NCBI GenBank assembly: GCA_030682655.1
Contig: JAUXNU010000013.1
Coordinates: 1 to 35,523, forward strand
DNA: 35,523 bases
Direction of reading: 5' to 3'
From: Actinomycetota bacterium
GTDB taxonomy: Bacteria; Actinomycetota; Coriobacteriia; Anaerosomatales; JAUXNU01
This document shows, piece by piece, positions 10,199 through 26,933 of this stretch. A program made the translations under genes and the position numbers. Positions within the stretch are counted from its first letter, which is position 1, and each line of letters opens with the position of its first letter. The notes below the pieces were generated by a model. It was not told where the DNA came from. It ran no database searches and was given only the letters and a program-made list of their open reading frames with translations.

Positions 10199-10492
10199 AT
10201 GTTTCGCAGCGCGGGACGTTTGCACCGGCATGGGAGGGGCGATCCTAATGACCGCGATACGGTCGTCGCTCTCAGAGACGGGGAGAGAGCAACGGTCATT
10301 GGCGTTCGCGGCGGCGGGCAGATGGAAGCGCGGCTCGTCAACATGGGACTTCGTCCCGGAAAGACCATCACGAAGCTTGCGGCGCTGCCCGGACGCGGGC
10401 CGGTGACCGTGGAGGTCGACGGATGCCGAGTGGCGCTAGGCCATGGGATTGCCCGCAAGCTGCTCGTAGAGCGGTCGAACGACCCCGGCTAG
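10199..10492 (+). CDS. feoA: FeoA-domain protein
   Basis: A small cytosolic SH3-like protein (97 residues) that supports the ferrous iron transporter FeoB. The FeoA domain spans ~21-92 and includes LRDGERATVIGVRGGGQMEARL, NMGLRPGKTITKL and a final GHGIARKLLV, all typical. About 20 extra N-terminal residues precede it. GGGAGAG lies 6 nt before the ATG at 10199. feoB begins nine bases after the stop, with its AGGAG overlapping the end of feoA, so the two are co-transcribed. Confidence 0.88.
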   Translation: MFRSAGRLHRHGRGDPNDRDTVVALRDGERATVIGVRGGGQMEARLVNMGLRPGKTITKLAALPGRGPVTVEVDGCRVALGHGIARKLLVERSNDPG

Positions 10493-10501
10493 GAGAAACT
10501 C

Positions 10502-12277
10502 ATGGGCGATGTGCCGTACCCCAGTAGGGTCGCCACTCTGGAGTCCGGCGCTCAGCCGAGAGTCCTCCTCGTGGGGAACCCGAACGTCGGGAAGAGCGTG
10601 GTCTTCTCCCGTCTGACGGGCGTGCGCGCGTTCTGCTCCAACTACCCCGGGACGACCGTCGAGTTCCTTGAGGGGGACATGCTCCTGGACGGCCGGAAGG
10701 TCCACGTGGTCGACGTGCCGGGCACCTACAGCCTCGAGCCGACGTGCCCGGCCGAGGACGTGGCGGTGCGCATGCTCGACGAGGGCGGCCTGGTCGTCAA
10801 CGTGGTCGACGCCACCAACCTCGAGCGCAACCTGAACGTAACGCTGCAGCTGCTCGAGCGCGGGATCCCCGTCGTCGTCACCCTCAACCTCTGGGATGAG
10901 ACGCGCCACCTTGGTATCCACATCGACGCGGACGCGCTCGCCGAACGGCTTGGCGTGCCCGTCGTGCCCACCACCGCCATCACGGGCGAGGGGATCAAGG
11001 AGCTGGTCGACGAGCTCGCACGCGCGAGCGGGTCGCCGCCGCCGAAGCCCGCCCGTTTCGAGGATGTCTGGTCCGAGATCGGCTCGATCGTCTCCGAGGT
11101 CCAGACAATCGAGCACAGGCACCACACCTGGCGCGACATCTTCGAGGACGTGAGCGTGAAACCGCGCACCGGCATCCCCTTCGCAATCGCGGTCCTCGTG
11201 GTCACCTTCCTCGTGATCCGCTTCATCGGCGAGGGGCTCATTGGGTACGTGATGGAGCCGGCGTTCGAGACTCTGTGGAGGCCCGTCGTTGAGGCCGTCT
11301 CGCGGGCGCTCGGGGGCGGGGGCTTCGTGCACGACCTGCTTGTCGGCTCGTTCGTGGTCGTCGACGGCACCAAGACGCTCGACTTCCTCCAGTCCTTCGG
11401 GTTGCTGACGACGGGTCTCTTCGTGCCGTTCGGCATGGTGATGCCCTACATCATCGCGTTCTACCTTCTGCTCGGCGTGCTTGAGGACGTCGGCTACCTC
11501 CCGCGGCTAGCGGTGCTGCTCGATCGGGTGATGCACCAGTTCGGGCTCCACGGCTACGCCGTGATCCCGCTGCTGCTCGGCTTCGGCTGCAACGTCCCCG
11601 GAATCCTTGCTACGCGGGTGCTGGACACGCGCCGGGAGCGTTTCATCGCGGCGACCATCATCTCCATCGGGGTCCCCTGCGCGGCGCTGCAGGCCATGAT
11701 CTTCGGACTGCTAGGCCGGTACGGGGGGCGGTACGTCCTCCTCGTCTACGCTGTGCTCGCCCTCGTGTGGCTGGTCCTCGGCACCTACCTGCGTCTGACC
11801 AGCAAGGACTTCCTGCCCGAGATCATCCTCGAGATACCGCCCTACCGGCGCCCGCACCTCGGGCCGCTGTGGGAGAAGCTTAGGATGCGGCTGAGGAGCT
11901 TCTTCCGCGAGGCGGTGCCGCTCGTGCTCGGCGGCGTCCTCGTAATCGACCTTATCTACATGAGCGGCGTGTTCGAGAGGGTGGCCGACGTTCTTGGACC
12001 TGTGATGGAGACGCTCTTCGGGCTCCCACCGGAGACAGCACTCGCGCTCGTGATCGGCTTCCTCCGAAAGGACGTGGCCATCGGCATGCTGGCACCCCAT
12101 GGTCTCACGGCGCTGCAGCTGGTCAAGGCATCCGTCCTGCTCGCCGTTACGTTCCCGTGCGTGGCCACGTACGCGGTGATGCTTCGCGAGCTGGGCTGGA
12201 GGGACACGGCGAAGGCGATGGGGCTCATGGCCGCTATCTCGGCTACTGTGGGCATTGCGATGAACCTGGTCTTCTAG
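10502..12277 (+). CDS. feoB: ferrous iron transport protein B
   Basis: Membrane Fe2+ transporter with a cytosolic GTPase domain, 591 residues. G1 is GNPNVGKS (25-32), the switch region NYPGTTVE, G3 DVPGTYS, G4 NLWD and G5 TTAITGEG, so the G-protein is intact. The membrane part (~225-591) has the first Gate motif with GFGCNVPGILATR and a second Gate near GFLRKDVAIGML. It is shorter than the ~770-residue E. coli protein and lacks a long C-terminal cytoplasmic tail. The cysteines proposed to line the pore are retained (GCNVPG and the later GVPCAAL and FPCVATY). Expressed with feoA; likely iron-regulated from the promoter at 10105-10133. Confidence 0.95.
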   Translation: MGDVPYPSRVATLESGAQPRVLLVGNPNVGKSVVFSRLTGVRAFCSNYPGTTVEFLEGDMLLDGRKVHVVDVPGTYSLEPTCPAEDVAVRMLDEGGLVVNVVDATNLERNLNVTLQLLERGIPVVVTLNLWDETRHLGIHIDADALAERLGVPVVPTTAITGEGIKELVDELARASGSPPPKPARFEDVWSEIGSIVSEVQTIEHRHHTWRDIFEDVSVKPRTGIPFAIAVLVVTFLVIRFIGEGLIGYVMEPAFETLWRPVVEAVSRALGGGGFVHDLLVGSFVVVDGTKTLDFLQSFGLLTTGLFVPFGMVMPYIIAFYLLLGVLEDVGYLPRLAVLLDRVMHQFGLHGYAVIPLLLGFGCNVPGILATRVLDTRRERFIAATIISIGVPCAALQAMIFGLLGRYGGRYVLLVYAVLALVWLVLGTYLRLTSKDFLPEIILEIPPYRRPHLGPLWEKLRMRLRSFFREAVPLVLGGVLVIDLIYMSGVFERVADVLGPVMETLFGLPPETALALVIGFLRKDVAIGMLAPHGLTALQLVKASVLLAVTFPCVATYAVMLRELGWRDTAKAMGLMAAISATVGIAMNLVF

Positions 12278-12605
12278 CGGCAGCGGACTGCGAGCGGCTG
12301 TGGGAGCCGGCTCCTTCTCCACGGGTGAGAACGTTGTGCTCTGTCTCTTGAGGTGCACGGTGATCGGTTTTCGCTATGAGCGTCATGTCGTATCCTGCTC
12401 CGGGGCCACCTGCCTCTCGATGGCGCGACCTACCTTGTTGGACAGCTCACGCGTTTTCTGGTCGCCATGCCGCGGCACAGGAAACTGAGTCCGCTCTGGC
12501 GTCCCTCGGCCGAAGTGACTGCTCGGTCTCGCGCTGCTCGCGTTCGAGCTGTCTCTGCTCATGCGACCGAGATTCCAGTGCGACTGGTCCGACGAGGGCT
12601 GCGCG
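12278..12605. other. convergent intergenic region after feoB
   Basis: Between the stop of feoB and the stop of the nicotianamine-synthase-like gene. GAGCGGC and GCCGGCTC around 12290-12312 can form a 7-bp stem with one bulge just after feoB, a weak terminator candidate without a U-tract. A minus-strand frame 12383-12562 (59 codons, ATG) has no recognisable features and I do not call it. Confidence 0.45.
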
Positions 12606-13478
12606 TCACACGCGTTCGACGAGAACCACCGTATTGTTCACGGGAGGCCCCGGGTCGACCTTGTCCACGACGACGAACTCCTCTGGCAACGACAGGTCTT
12701 CGTCGCCCGCGAGGATGCGACGCAGGCCTTTCTCGTAGGTGCGCAAGGAGATGCGAGCGCCCTTTGGCAGGACATGCAGCAGGTGTCGGAGGATCTGTTG
12801 CCTCGGGTCCGCCTGCGCCGCGATCATCACGAGGTCTGGGGTCCGTCCGACCGACAGCCATCGGTGATCCCCCCTGACGACCTCGATCCGCTCAGACAGG
12901 CCGAGGCGCTGGACGACGCGGCTGGCGAGCGCCGCGAGATCCACGTCTTCCTCGATGGCGATCGTGTGTACGTGGTGGTGCGCGGCGAGCAGGATGTTCG
13001 TCAGCGGAAGAGGGCCACATCCCACGAATAGCACCTCGTCGTCCGCATGGAGCGAGGCGGCGCGGGCCTCCGCGCCCACGAGTGTGACGTAGTTGGGGTA
13101 GAAGACGAAGCGCTCCAATACCGTCCAGGGCTCATTGCTTTCGAGCACCTGCTCGGCGAAGCGTCTCTCGTGGAGACGGAAGAAGGCGGAGTGGGCGTCG
13201 CGTAGGTCTGGGAGCATGGCGCTCACGTCGGGATCAGCCAACAACGCGGCTACTAGGTTGTCCCCAGGCGCGTGCAGACGAACGACATCGTCGAGCTCTG
13301 CGTAGAGCAGACATACGTCACCGAAAGCGAGTTCGTCCTGCGCGTCTGGAGCGAGTTCGCGGATCCTATCGTGGAACGCCAGCAGATGCCGCTTGACCGA
13401 CTCGAGACTCGTTTCGCAATCCAGACAACAATCGGCAAGCTCGCGGTCGATGCTGTGGCGGTGATATGGGTTGTCCAC
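12606..13478 (-). CDS. nicotianamine synthase-like protein
   Basis: Likely transfers aminobutyrate from S-adenosylmethionine, as in nicotianamine or opine-type metallophore synthesis (family knowledge; the exact acceptor is unknown). The 290 residues hold an N-terminal helical domain with the family region LERFVFYPNYVTLVGAE (~121-137, with Y127, Y130, E137). The Rossmann methyltransferase-like domain has FVGCGPLPLT (151-160), very close to the FIGSGPLPLT of nicotianamine synthases, then LGLSERIEVVRGD and a terminal VVLVERV. I chose the GTG at 13478 because TAGGAGG lies about 10 nt upstream; a much longer frame upstream is a shadow of the lipoprotein gene. It is convergent with feoB. No opine dehydrogenase is visible here, so a complete metallophore pathway is not shown. 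Confidence 0.8.
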   Translation of the reverse strand: MDNPYHRHSIDRELADCCLDCETSLESVKRHLLAFHDRIRELAPDAQDELAFGDVCLLYAELDDVVRLHAPGDNLVAALLADPDVSAMLPDLRDAHSAFFRLHERRFAEQVLESNEPWTVLERFVFYPNYVTLVGAEARAASLHADDEVLFVGCGPLPLTNILLAAHHHVHTIAIEEDVDLAALASRVVQRLGLSERIEVVRGDHRWLSVGRTPDLVMIAAQADPRQQILRHLLHVLPKGARISLRTYEKGLRRILAGDEDLSLPEEFVVVDKVDPGPPVNNTVVLVERV

Positions 13479-13507
13479 GGCTCCACGTCCTCCTACGAGT
13501 CTGTTCC

Positions 13508-13645
13508 CTACAGCGGTACCACGAGCGGGATGTTGTTCATCCGCGTCACGCTCATCTGCACGCCGTAACCGGACGCGACGTTGTCCGGAGTGATGACTTC
13601 GGACGTGCTGCACCGCAGTCTGTTCGCTCCACGTTCGGCGGGGCG
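13508..13645 (-). pseudogene. coding remnant upstream of the nicotianamine synthase-like gene
   Basis: A minus-strand frame ending in TAG at 13508-13510 reads CSTSEVITPDNVASGYGVQ... and ends NNIPLVVPL. About 31 of its last 35 codons end in G or C, as in real genes here, yet no ATG, GTG or TTG with a ribosome binding site opens it; the only starts are internal (VQM.., MSVTRM..). It lies between the lipoprotein stop and the Shine-Dalgarno of the next gene. I read it as the 3' remnant of a lost gene. The left limit (13645) is approximate, and a short leader peptide is the alternative. Confidence 0.35.
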
Positions 13646-13665
13646 TGATCGGCGCGTTGGGCGGG

Positions 13666-14088
13666 CTAGTCGTGGAAGCCGCCAGACTCGTGAACCTGCT
13701 CGACCTCCGCCTTGAACGTCTCGAAGAGCGACATGGCAATCCGCATGGGTTCGCCCGCCTCTGCGTTTTCGGGCAGTGCTTCGACCGCATCGATGAGATC
13801 CTGGTGCGCAGCAGCGGCGTCTGCGATGTCAATCCCGTCCAGCCCCTCGGCGGCTCGCTCGACGTCCTTCCATTCGAGTGAGAGCTTCTCGACGAAGGAT
13901 CGGATATCGGCGCTCGTCGCATCAGACCCAAGCAGGTAGAAGGCTGCGAACTGATGCTCGACGTCGTGGATTGTCTCGTCAAAGGCGGCGCGCTCTTCGT
14001 CGTGAGATGAGACCTGGCACCCCGAGATGAGTCCAGCCAACGCCACGGCAACGCAGAATAGCACAAGCACTCGTCGCACGGGATCCAT
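13666..14088 (-). CDS. predicted lipoprotein of unknown function
   Basis: A 140-residue exported protein. The N-terminus MDPVRRVLVLFCVAVALAG is a signal peptide, followed by the lipobox LISGC with Cys at residue ~24. The mature part is acidic and helical, with no motif I recognise. GGGGGAG lies just upstream of the ATG at 14088, which I chose over an upstream in-frame start because the signal peptide begins there. It is upstream of the nicotianamine-synthase-like gene on the same strand and may share its transcript. A role in metal binding is conceivable but not shown. Confidence 0.75.
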   Translation of the reverse strand: MDPVRRVLVLFCVAVALAGLISGCQVSSHDEERAAFDETIHDVEHQFAAFYLLGSDATSADIRSFVEKLSLEWKDVERAAEGLDGIDIADAAAAHQDLIDAVEALPENAEAGEPMRIAMSLFETFKAEVEQVHESGGFHD

Positions 14089-14255
14089 ACTCGCTCCCCC
14101 CTTGGGCAAGACGTTGCGCACACGGCAACGGTGAGTCAGCAAGCCCACCATCGGAGTCCATCCTATCAGTGTTCACAGCGACGCACCCGACCGCGAACCC
14201 CGACGCGGGGTAGGTAGTGTCTGTGGGCGTTGCGAATCCCCCAAGGAGGTGTCGG

Positions 14256-14972
14256 ATGGAAGAGAAGGCGATTGGCTGTGCACGTCCAACCGGGGCCGTC
14301 GTCGGCGAGGAGCCGGTCAAGGAAATCGAATCAGTCGATACAGCGCGAAAGGAAGTCTCTATGAGCAAGATCATGGTGGGGCGTGCGGCCCCCCCCGATT
14401 TCACCGCACCCGCATACCACAACGGCGGGTTCGCGCAGGTCAAGTTGTCGGATTATCTGGGCAAATGGGTCGTTCTATGCTTCTACCCGGGTGACTTCAC
14501 CTTCGTTTGACCGACCGAGTTGTCGGCGGTCGCCGCGAAGTACGATGAGTTCAAGGCTCTTGGAGCGGAGGTGATGTCGGTCAGCGTGGACACGCAGTTC
14601 GTGCACAAGATGTGGAACGAGACCGAGCTCTCGAAGATGGTCGATGGCGGTGTCCCGTTCCCCATGATCGCCGACGCGGCTGGACGCCTAGGTACGGCGT
14701 TCGGGGTCTACGACGACGAAGCGGGGGTGGACGTGCGCGGTCGCTTCATAATCGACCCGGATGGCGTGATCCAGGCCATGGGGGTGCTCACCCCGCCGGT
14801 AGGCCGGAAGGTTGAGGAGTCTTTGCGGCAGATCAAGGCGTTCCAGCACGTGCGTGAGACGGGTGGTGCCGAGGTGACTCCCTCGGGTTGGGAGCCGGGC
14901 AGGAAGGTGCTGAAGCCGGGTCCCGATCTGGTCGGTCATGTGTGGGAGGTCTGGAAGCCGGGCGACGAGTAG
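14256..14972 (+). CDS. selenocysteine peroxiredoxin (AhpC/Prx type, in-frame TGA)
   Basis: Reduces hydroperoxides. The frame runs from ATG 14256 through an in-frame TGA at 14508-14510 to TAG 14970-14972, 238 residues with Sec at 85. The TGA stands exactly where the peroxidatic Cys of AhpC-type peroxiredoxins lies: [22 protein letters not shown]. Homology continues without a shift on both sides, including the later [10 protein letters not shown] segment. AAGGAGGT (14243-14250) lies 5 nt before the chosen ATG; ATG 14361 (GGAAG upstream) would give a family-length 203-residue form. Odd points are a 35-residue N-terminal extension with a Cys (GCARPTG), and VTPSGWEPG where 2-Cys enzymes have a resolving Cys (VCPAxW). 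The enzyme is therefore probably 1-Sec, or uses C75, C8 or a partner. It needs SelA/B/C/D encoded elsewhere. Confidence 0.88.
14508..14532 (+). promoter_or_regulatory. candidate bacterial SECIS hairpin
   Basis: Immediately after the TGA (14508-14510), CGACCG (14512-14517) can pair with CGGTCG (14527-14532), leaving a 9-nt loop that contains GU. An alternative stem pairs CCGAC (14511-14515) with GTCGG (14522-14526). Bacterial selenocysteine insertion needs such a stem-loop within the coding region just 3' of UGA. The hairpin is seen in the sequence; SelB binding is inference. Confidence 0.5.
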
Positions 14973-15060
14973 AACCCAGCCCGACACGCCGCGCCAGGGC
15001 CACCCGTGTCATCTGAACCCCTGTTCGCGGCGCCCCGCGCGCGTGTACACTGACTACCCT

Positions 15061-17289
15061 ATGACCATCTCGCTTTCCGACCTCAATCCCGCGCAGCACG
15101 ACGCGGTCACAACGACGGAGGGTCCGCTGCTCGTACTTGCCGGCGCCGGCTCCGGCAAGACGCGCGTGCTCACGCATCGCATCGCACATCTCGTTGGCGA
15201 CCTGCGCGTTTCCGCCGCCGAGATCCTCGCCATCACCTTCACCAACAAGGCTGCCGAGGAGATGCGCGGACGCCTCGGAGCCATCGTTGGGCCAGCCGTC
15301 CGCGCGATGTGGGTCATGACCTTCCACGCCGCGTGCGTCCGCATGCTGCGCGCCGATGCGGACAAGGTCGGCTACGAACGCAACTTCACCATCTACGACT
15401 CCGACGACACCAAGCGCATGCTTGCCGCGGTCATGTCGGAACTCGAGATCGACCCCAAGCGCTATCCCGTGAACATGGTCGGGGGCAAGATCTCCTCGGC
15501 CAAGAACGAACTGATCGGGGCTGCCGAGTACGCGGAGACGGCGGTCCTTCCGCCGGACAAGATCGCGGCACGGGTCTACTCGCGCTACCGGAAGCGCATG
15601 CGAGACGCGTGCGCGATGGACTTCGACGACCTGCTGGTCAACGCGCACCGGCTTCTCGCCGAGAATCCCGACGTGCTCGAAGCGTACCAGGACCGCTTCC
15701 GCTACATCCTGGTCGACGAGTATCAGGACACCAACCACGTCCAGTACCGCATCGTGAATCTGTTGGCGGCCAAGCTTCGCAACCTGATGGTGGTAGGCGA
15801 CGACGACCAGTCGATCTACTCGTGGCGCGGTGCGGATATCCGCAACATTCTCGAGTTCGAGCGCGACTATCCCGATGCGACCGTGATCCGTCTCGAGCAG
15901 AACTACCGGTCCACGGCGACGATCCTCGCCGCCGCCAACGCCGTTGTGGCCAACAACGCCGGGCGCAAGCCCAAGACACTCTGGACCGCCAACGCGGGCG
16001 GCGAATCCATCGCGCGCTATTGCGCCAGCGACGAGCGTGACGAGGCGCGGTTCGTGGCCGCCGAGGTCGAGCGAGTCATGCGCGAGGAGCACCGCAGCTA
16101 CGCGGAGTTCGCCGTCTTCTACCGCACCAACGCGCAGAGCCGTGTGCTCGAGGACCTGTTCCTGCGCGCCGGCGTGCCCTACCAGATCGTCGGCGGCACG
16201 CGTTTCTTCGACCGCATGGAGATCCGCGACGTCATGGCCTACCTCAAGGCGGTCGTGAATCCCGCCGATGAGATCGCCGTCAAGCGCATCATCAACACGC
16301 CCAAGCGAGGAATCGGCAAGACGACCGTCGAGGGTCTTGAGTACGAGGCGATATCCCGGGGCATCACGTTCATGGACGCGGTACAGCAGGCTGGCGAGTG
16401 GTTGGGAACAGGCCCGGCGAGCAAAGTGGCCGCGTTCGCCGGGCTCATGGGCGAGCTGGACGGAATCCTCGGCGGGGGCGGATCCTTGCGCGACCTCGTC
16501 GAGGGCGTCATCGAGCGTGCAGGGCTCATTGCGGCGCTCCAGGCAGAGCGCACGTTCGAGTCCGATGGCCGCGTTGAGAACGTCAAGGAGTTCTTCGGCG
16601 TGGTCGAGGAGTTCTGCGCGCAGCATGCGGACGCAGGTCTGCCGGAGTTCATGGAGTGGGCTGCGCTGCGTTCGGACATCGACTCGCTGCAGGAGGGGGA
16701 GCGGGCCGTCACGCTCATGACCTTGCACACGGCCAAGGGTCTCGAGTACCCGGTCGTGTTCGTCGTCGGCATGGAGGACTCGATCTTCCCGCACGCCAAC
16801 TCGATGTTCGATGAGTCCGGGCTGGAAGAGGAGCGCCGTCTCGCCTACGTCGGTATCACGCGTGCCAAGGAGCGCCTCTACCTCACACACGCTCACTCGC
16901 GGTCGCTGTACGGCGCCACGCAGCACAACCCGCCGAGCCGTTTCCTTGGCGAGATACCCGAGGAGCACGTCAAGATGAGCGGGGTCGGCTCTCAGGGCAT
17001 CTCCGGGACCGGCTTCACCCGCCGCGGCGAAGGCTCTCGCGGGAGCTCGCCGGGCATCGGCTCCTCGCGAGGTGAAGGACGCGTGTTCGGGGCTGGAACG
17101 CCCCGCCGCGAACCTCGCCCCACCGAGCAGACCGAGAGCTTCACGAAGGGCGACCGGGTCGAGCACAAGGTCTTTGGCCTGGGCAAGGTGACGGAGGTCG
17201 CGGGCGACAAGGTGACCGTGCGGTTCTCCTCGGCAGGGACCAAGACGCTGCTTGCGGGTTACGCTCCGCTTCGGAAAGTGCAAGACTGA
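15061..17289 (+). CDS. pcrA: ATP-dependent DNA helicase PcrA/UvrD
   Basis: A superfamily 1A 3'-5' helicase acting in nucleotide excision repair, mismatch repair and clearing of stalled complexes, 742 residues. Seen in order: Q-motif LNPAQHDAV, Walker A AGAGSGKT (27-34), Walker B DEYQDTN (from D219), motif III GDDDQSIYSWRGAD, motif IV QNYRST, motif V TLHTAKGLEY and motif VI VGITRAKERLYL. The C-terminus (GDRVEHKVFGLGKVTEV...) is the Tudor-like domain that binds RNA polymerase in PcrA. I chose ATG 15061, where the family N-terminus begins; the frame extends upstream without support. No clear Shine-Dalgarno is seen, so it may be translated from a near-leaderless transcript. Confidence 0.95.
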   Translation: MTISLSDLNPAQHDAVTTTEGPLLVLAGAGSGKTRVLTHRIAHLVGDLRVSAAEILAITFTNKAAEEMRGRLGAIVGPAVRAMWVMTFHAACVRMLRADADKVGYERNFTIYDSDDTKRMLAAVMSELEIDPKRYPVNMVGGKISSAKNELIGAAEYAETAVLPPDKIAARVYSRYRKRMRDACAMDFDDLLVNAHRLLAENPDVLEAYQDRFRYILVDEYQDTNHVQYRIVNLLAAKLRNLMVVGDDDQSIYSWRGADIRNILEFERDYPDATVIRLEQNYRSTATILAAANAVVANNAGRKPKTLWTANAGGESIARYCASDERDEARFVAAEVERVMREEHRSYAEFAVFYRTNAQSRVLEDLFLRAGVPYQIVGGTRFFDRMEIRDVMAYLKAVVNPADEIAVKRIINTPKRGIGKTTVEGLEYEAISRGITFMDAVQQAGEWLGTGPASKVAAFAGLMGELDGILGGGGSLRDLVEGVIERAGLIAALQAERTFESDGRVENVKEFFGVVEEFCAQHADAGLPEFMEWAALRSDIDSLQEGERAVTLMTLHTAKGLEYPVVFVVGMEDSIFPHANSMFDESGLEEERRLAYVGITRAKERLYLTHAHSRSLYGATQHNPPSRFLGEIPEEHVKMSGVGSQGISGTGFTRRGEGSRGSSPGIGSSRGEGRVFGAGTPRREPRPTEQTESFTKGDRVEHKVFGLGKVTEVAGDKVTVRFSSAGTKTLLAGYAPLRKVQD

Positions 17290-26411: not shown

Positions 26412-26933
26412 TTGACCGATGCGCTGATCCGCGACGCGTGCATGGCGGACGCCCAGGCTATCGCCGACATCTACAACCACTACATCGAGCATTCGACGGC
26501 GACTTTCGATACGGAACCCAAGACCGCCGAGGAACGTCTTTCGTGGCTCGACGCGCACGGCGAGCGATACCCCGTGCTCGTCGCGGAGATTGACGGCCGC
26601 GTCGTGGCGTGGGGCTCACTTACCGCGTGGTCGCCGCGTCCGGCATATGCTCCCGCCGTCGAGGTCTCGACCTACGTGGCGCCCGACGCTGTAGGGCGAG
26701 GTCTCGGACCGCAGCTCATGGAGGAGCTTGTGGAGTGCGCAAGGCGCGCGGGACATCGCGCGCTGCTGAGCCAGGTCGTCTCCGAGAACGAGCATAGTCT
26801 CCGTGTGACCGAGCGGATGGGATTCGAACGCGTGGGCCTGCTCAGGGAGGTCGGCCTCAAGTTCGGACGTCGCCTGGATGTCGTGATCTTGGAGCGACTG
26901 ATTGACCAAGGAGGTCTCGCGGAACGTGACTAG
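26412..26933 (+). CDS. GNAT-family N-acetyltransferase (phosphinothricin acetyltransferase-like)
   Basis: A cytosolic acetyl-CoA-dependent acetyltransferase, 173 residues. The fold shows the N-terminal IRDACMADAQAIADIYNHYI, a beta bulge with VEVSTYVAPDAVGRGLGPQLM (the acetyl-CoA-binding V/R-x-x-G-x-G/A motif) and SENEHSLRVTERMGFERVG. This layout is that of the phosphinothricin/methionine-sulfoximine acetyltransferase subgroup, whose natural substrates are often amino-acid analogues; the substrate here is unknown. The start is TTG at 26412 behind GGGAG. The end overlaps nhaA by 8 nt. Confidence 0.85.
   Translation: MTDALIRDACMADAQAIADIYNHYIEHSTATFDTEPKTAEERLSWLDAHGERYPVLVAEIDGRVVAWGSLTAWSPRPAYAPAVEVSTYVAPDAVGRGLGPQLMEELVECARRAGHRALLSQVVSENEHSLRVTERMGFERVGLLREVGLKFGRRLDVVILERLIDQGGLAERD

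Follow-up and report, generated by a model that had tools for sequence, protein, structure and literature searches.

A gene at positions 12606..13478 (− strand) of the 35,523-nt stretch of Actinomycetota DNA analyzed here (the window) encodes a 290-residue protein of the nicotianamine synthase (NAS) family, best predicted from its sequence to be an aminobutyrate (3-amino-3-carboxypropyl) transferase of the archaeal, thermonicotianamine (tNA) kind. Computation placed the protein by family, fold, catalytic residues, SAM motif, and phylogeny, and tied the NAS genes of its relatives to nickel importers. We consider it reasonably likely that this is an enzyme of the Methanothermobacter thermautotrophicus type (MtNAS) that makes a tNA-related chelator for the handling of nickel (or cobalt or iron), and that its gene was probably shared horizontally. 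The NAS family itself is already known; the novelty lies in the unexpected lineage and in the gene neighborhoods of the relatives.

The reading frame is intact. Translation from a GTG start codon at 13478, with an AGGAGG Shine–Dalgarno sequence ten bases upstream, to the stop codon at 12606-12608 yields 290 residues. The Pfam NAS family (PF03059) matched the protein at 100.9-101.5 bits (E 1e-28; gathering cutoff, 27.1 bits) over profile positions 8-270 of 276. It was the sole Pfam family above cutoff, and general methyltransferase families all remained under their own cutoffs, in agreement with the original prediction, made from the DNA letters, that the gene belongs to the NAS family. A phmmer search of the Protein Data Bank returned MtNAS (3fpe) at E 1e-26 and the staphylopine enzyme CntL at E 0.03. 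Scanning positions 12200-14300 for promoters and terminators found nothing.

All three motifs on which the family call had been based, FVGCGPLPLT, ERFVFYPNY...E, and LGLSERI, are present, and the catalytic Glu/Tyr pair is retained. Glu81 and Tyr107 of MtNAS align, within an ungapped part of the alignment with the Protein Data Bank sequence, with Glu104 (codon 13167..13169, − strand) and Tyr130 (codon 13089..13091, − strand), both of which are invariant in a 54-sequence alignment. In MtNAS, these two residues have been credited with removing a proton from the acceptor amine (PMC10491745); their equivalents in AtNAS1 are essential (PMC10248798). The family also carries a modified SAM-binding motif I (PMC1282579), GxGPxP, which here takes the NAS-specific form GCGPLPLT (residues 153-160; 12999..13022, − strand). 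Judged by sequence, the window gene specifies an enzyme of the NAS family whose catalytic pair is intact.

An AlphaFold model of the protein, built from 31 relatives (pLDDT 84, pTM 0.83), was compared with the Protein Data Bank. MtNAS (3fpg/3fpe) ranked first, with TM scores of 0.82 and 0.90 when normalized to the query and target lengths, respectively, followed by CntL at 0.71. MtNAS, the thermonicotianamine synthase of M. thermautotrophicus (3FPE/3FPF/3FPG/3FPJ/3O31), uses glutamate as starter together with SAM; for archaeal NAS, crystal structures are available and the product is known. It is the closest relative of the window enzyme in both fold and sequence, and in the tree both enzymes are set apart from plant-type NAS. 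Beyond family, fold, and the Glu/Tyr pair, the two have in common GxGPLPLT, RTY, and VNNT as well as the absence of a VGMD insert, whereas they are only 30% identical, and the window enzyme differs in its N-terminal extension with HxH and CCxDC, its subclade, and its gene neighborhood. The nearest sequences, at up to 37-39% identity, are NAS of Methanosarcinales and ANME-2 (e.g., L010 and L013) and the NAS1 and NAS2 proteins of Desulfobacterota (e.g., L031). The window enzyme shares a clade with the Methanosarcinales/ANME set and an N-terminal motif with Desulfobacterota NAS1. Several of these relatives adjoin NikKMLQO or CbiX genes and many are paired, whereas the window NAS is single and lies beside feoAB.

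CntL, the D-histidine aminobutyrate transferase of staphylopine synthesis, performs the same class of chemistry and has the same overall fold class (TM 0.71), and the window gene might on that account encode the first half of a route to a staphylopine- or pseudopaline-like opine metallophore, the dehydrogenase and exporter being encoded at other sites in the genome. We regard this as highly improbable. Identity to CntL in the structural alignment is 17%; the CntL model (NCBIfam NF033601) scored 27.5 bits against a cutoff of 350; and the tree groups the window enzyme with methanogen and ANME enzymes, so that the kinship with staphylopine-type synthases proposed earlier finds no support. In line with the accompanying remark that no opine dehydrogenase or exporter lies nearby, no cntM and no exporter or importer genes were seen among the neighboring window proteins scanned. 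The opine dehydrogenase family PF10100 had no match in the host genome, an absence that is unproven in that the model gave no match over cutoff in any genome searched and thus no positive control.

Plants and fungi make true nicotianamine from three SAM molecules, and a common Pfam family and catalytic Glu and Tyr would be compatible with the same product here. This is nevertheless very unlikely. Genuine nicotianamine synthesis by AtNAS1 needs the glutamate E73 and a VGMD insert (PMC10248798); in our alignment, the window enzyme has Phe100 at the E73 position and a four-residue gap at VGMD, and it lies on a separate branch from AtNAS1. Two plant-like NAS from other actinobacteria (L003 in G553 and L004 in G426) resemble it in family and catalytic pair but possess a VGxD insert and the E73-equivalent Glu, and they form a separate, fully supported, long branch of the tree. 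These two are candidate genuine nicotianamine producers. Since they carry both features on a branch of their own, the phylum holds two distinct kinds of NAS, with the window enzyme representing the archaeal kind. The original proposal of a product that is "nicotianamine-like itself" was thus right as to the kind of molecule, whereas the lack of a VGMD insert and of an E73 equivalent makes nicotianamine proper unlikely. Three further NAS-like proteins (L002, L005, and L006) are short, at ~200 aa, have variant SAM motifs (GSGPLPYT, GAGSVPYT, and GGGFCPFS), and lack most of the N-terminal helical domain.

Phylogenetic analysis joined the window NAS to the Methanosarcinales/ANME-2 clade with support of 100/99 without an outgroup and 95/90 with one. 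It forms a long single branch (length 1.06), which makes transfer of function at the level of orthologs uncertain. A scan of genome contigs located NAS relatives in Methanosarcinales, ANME-2, Methanobacteriales, and a few bacteria, namely Desulfospira, another deltaproteobacterial metagenome-assembled genome (MAG), Peptococcaceae, and Syntrophaceticus/Syntrophomonadaceae; viral contigs contained none. Within the host's order, NAS was present in 1 of 69 genomes, the window's own, and no genome besides the host gave a match over cutoff in the sample of the class. Horizontal acquisition is the natural reading, and a horizontal exchange probably links the host's gene with those of methanogenic or methanotrophic archaea or other anaerobes, the host lineage presumably being the recipient. 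Uniqueness in the order, together with the long branch and a contamination estimate of 4.6% for the MAG, would also fit a binning contaminant or a decaying acquisition without function in the host, an explanation to which we give scant credence: the gene lies inside a 35 kb contig whose nearby peroxiredoxin gene is 74-87% identical to the closest copies in order relatives, its GC content (0.636) is close to that of the window (0.646), and its frame is open with all catalytic residues retained.

Tandem NAS1-NAS2 pairs were found in 5 of 345 genomes (a sample centered on Desulfospira), with an HxH and CCx[DN]C motif in the first gene. In these Desulfobacterota pairs (L016, L031, L113, L114, and L115), NAS2 falls in the Methanosarcinales clade, and the arrangement suggests that two successive aminobutyrate transfers are divided between two enzymes. 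By sequence comparison, the window NAS has the same motif as NAS1, His-x-His followed by Cys-Cys-x-Asp-Cys at residues 6-21 (13416..13463, − strand), in a region of low model confidence; archaeal NAS lack it. It is a possible metal or regulatory site. Orthology of the window NAS to Desulfobacterota NAS1 on the strength of the common CCxDC was considered and set aside, as the tree weakly rejects a single clade of the two (AU p 0.046, borderline); it may instead be an ancestral motif that archaea have lost.

We then turn to the gene neighborhoods of the relatives. Clustering of ORFs around 40 NAS genes revealed one recurrent cassette, composed of DUF4198 (NikK), CbiM/NikM, a NikL-like protein, CbiQ/NikQ, and an ABC ATPase (NikO). 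This NikKMLQO-type cassette lies by NAS in Methanococcoides, Methanolobus, ANME-2, and Desulfospira, and a Peptococcaceae locus has M-Q-O. With tblastn, the parts detected near NAS were M at two Methanobacteriaceae-type loci, M plus Q in Peptococcaceae, and K, M, plus Q in Desulfospira. For Methanococcoides, Methanolobus, and ANME-2, the same search placed K, M, and L next to NAS, together with Q at all but a short ANME-2 locus (L023). The NAS1-NAS2 pair of Desulfospira follows nikO in the same orientation, starting 61 bp behind it. Parts of the Nik transporter were the only families besides NAS itself that several archaeal and bacterial NAS loci had in common. The probability that 5 lineages among ~20 would show the linkage by chance is crudely estimated at 5e-6, assuming a guessed density of two importer loci per 2.5 Mb genome and roughly counted lineages. 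At a further set of Methanosarcinales/ANME loci, a gene for a CbiX-type chelatase lies next to NAS. There is no Nik linkage in most Methanosarcina and Methanobrevibacter NAS loci or in 4 of the 5 Desulfobacterota pairs, and no nickel-importer genes adjoining NAS were seen in the window. NikK and NikL are markers of nickel systems, and some NikKMLQO systems move cobalt (PMC2667541). The literature that we searched contained no established biological role for archaeal NAS; Methanobrevibacter papers mention NAS as a gene for general metal uptake, as a suggestion only. It is the linkage of NAS to nickel importers in the relatives that leads us to propose a chelator serving in the handling of nickel (or of cobalt or iron).

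In the window itself, NAS is convergent with feoAB, as originally described: feoA (10199-10492; PF04023) and feoB (10502-12277; PF02421) occupy 10199..12277 on the + strand, ~330 bp from NAS. On the other side lies a PrxU-type peroxiredoxin gene (14256-14972, + strand; NCBIfam PrxU, 392.7 bits; cutoff, 270). Its in-frame TGA at 14508-14510 falls exactly at the position of the peroxidatic Cys (FTFV-U-PTEL), and the matches in order relatives all have one TGA per gene, one copy having a TAA as well. Because the TGA is kept in all of these matched relatives, PrxU is probably a conserved selenoprotein. An Rfam scan of 12200-15100 gave chance matches only and no known SECIS family. A gene for a small putative lipoprotein (13666..14088, − strand), with no family match and with a signal peptide and lipobox recognized by eye, precedes NAS by ~190 bp in the same orientation; it was not found near PrxU in order relatives. 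Farther along the window, a GNAT acetyltransferase near the ArsN1/phosphinothricin family (26412-26933, + strand) scored 141 of 170 bits, under the cutoff.

This neighborhood invites a role in iron handling, in which the chelator would work with FeoAB by buffering imported Fe(II), perhaps together with the peroxide-removing PrxU. Besides the positions of feoAB and PrxU on the two sides of NAS, such a role is favored by a desulfobacterial NAS pair situated ~5 kb from a TGA-interrupted PrxU of the window's kind (L114; 481-2180 and 7457-8233), with rubrerythrin- and desulfoferrodoxin-like genes, read by eye, in between. We nonetheless judge it unlikely. NAS and feoAB are convergent, not cotranscribed; an order relative without NAS (G007) also has feoAB beside the same peroxiredoxin gene, and that neighborhood is therefore independent of NAS; and the related NAS loci showed no recurring feo-like cluster, whereas Nik genes do recur in them. 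An operon-like link between NAS and feoAB was rejected on the first two of these grounds. Of the original inference of a metal-chelator pathway from the adjacency of feoAB, the outcome is upheld, a chelator function being likely, whereas the argument from feoAB is weak.

Nickel demand in the host is plausible, given two CbiM-type importer loci (L116 and L117), on other contigs than NAS, and several [NiFe]-hydrogenase large subunits; the host NAS itself may be connected with nickel. In the nickel-directed mechanism that we propose, the window NAS would be a cytoplasmic enzyme of the archaeal (MtNAS) type that transfers aminobutyrate from SAM. The amino group of an amino acid starter, most likely glutamate as in MtNAS, would be deprotonated by Glu104 and Tyr130 and would attack Cγ of SAM, with 5′-methylthioadenosine (MTA) as leaving group. 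The transfer may be repeated, in perhaps one or two rounds overall, to give a small polyamino-carboxylate chelator presumably related to thermonicotianamine. The metal bound by the product would be a divalent transition metal, with nickel the likeliest candidate and cobalt or iron as alternatives, and the product may buffer or deliver this metal inside the cell or else help in its uptake.

The occurrence of NAS beside nickel importers in both domains gives the enzyme a testable role in providing a small-molecule nickel chelator. This role would concern the methanogens, methane oxidizers, and sulfate reducers that have a nickel-dependent metabolism, and archaeal-type NAS has also reached an actinobacterial lineage with hydrogenases. 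As a broader and more tentative idea, anaerobic archaea and bacteria might share a nickel system in which a tNA-type enzyme, often a NAS1-NAS2 pair, operates with NikKMLQO and a CbiX-type chelatase; the window NAS would then be a dispersed form of it, with CCxDC sensing or receiving the metal. Among the hydrogenase genes of the host, one large subunit (G000:C3:15076-16545; L158) contains a single in-frame TGA and is a probable [NiFeSe] selenoprotein hydrogenase.
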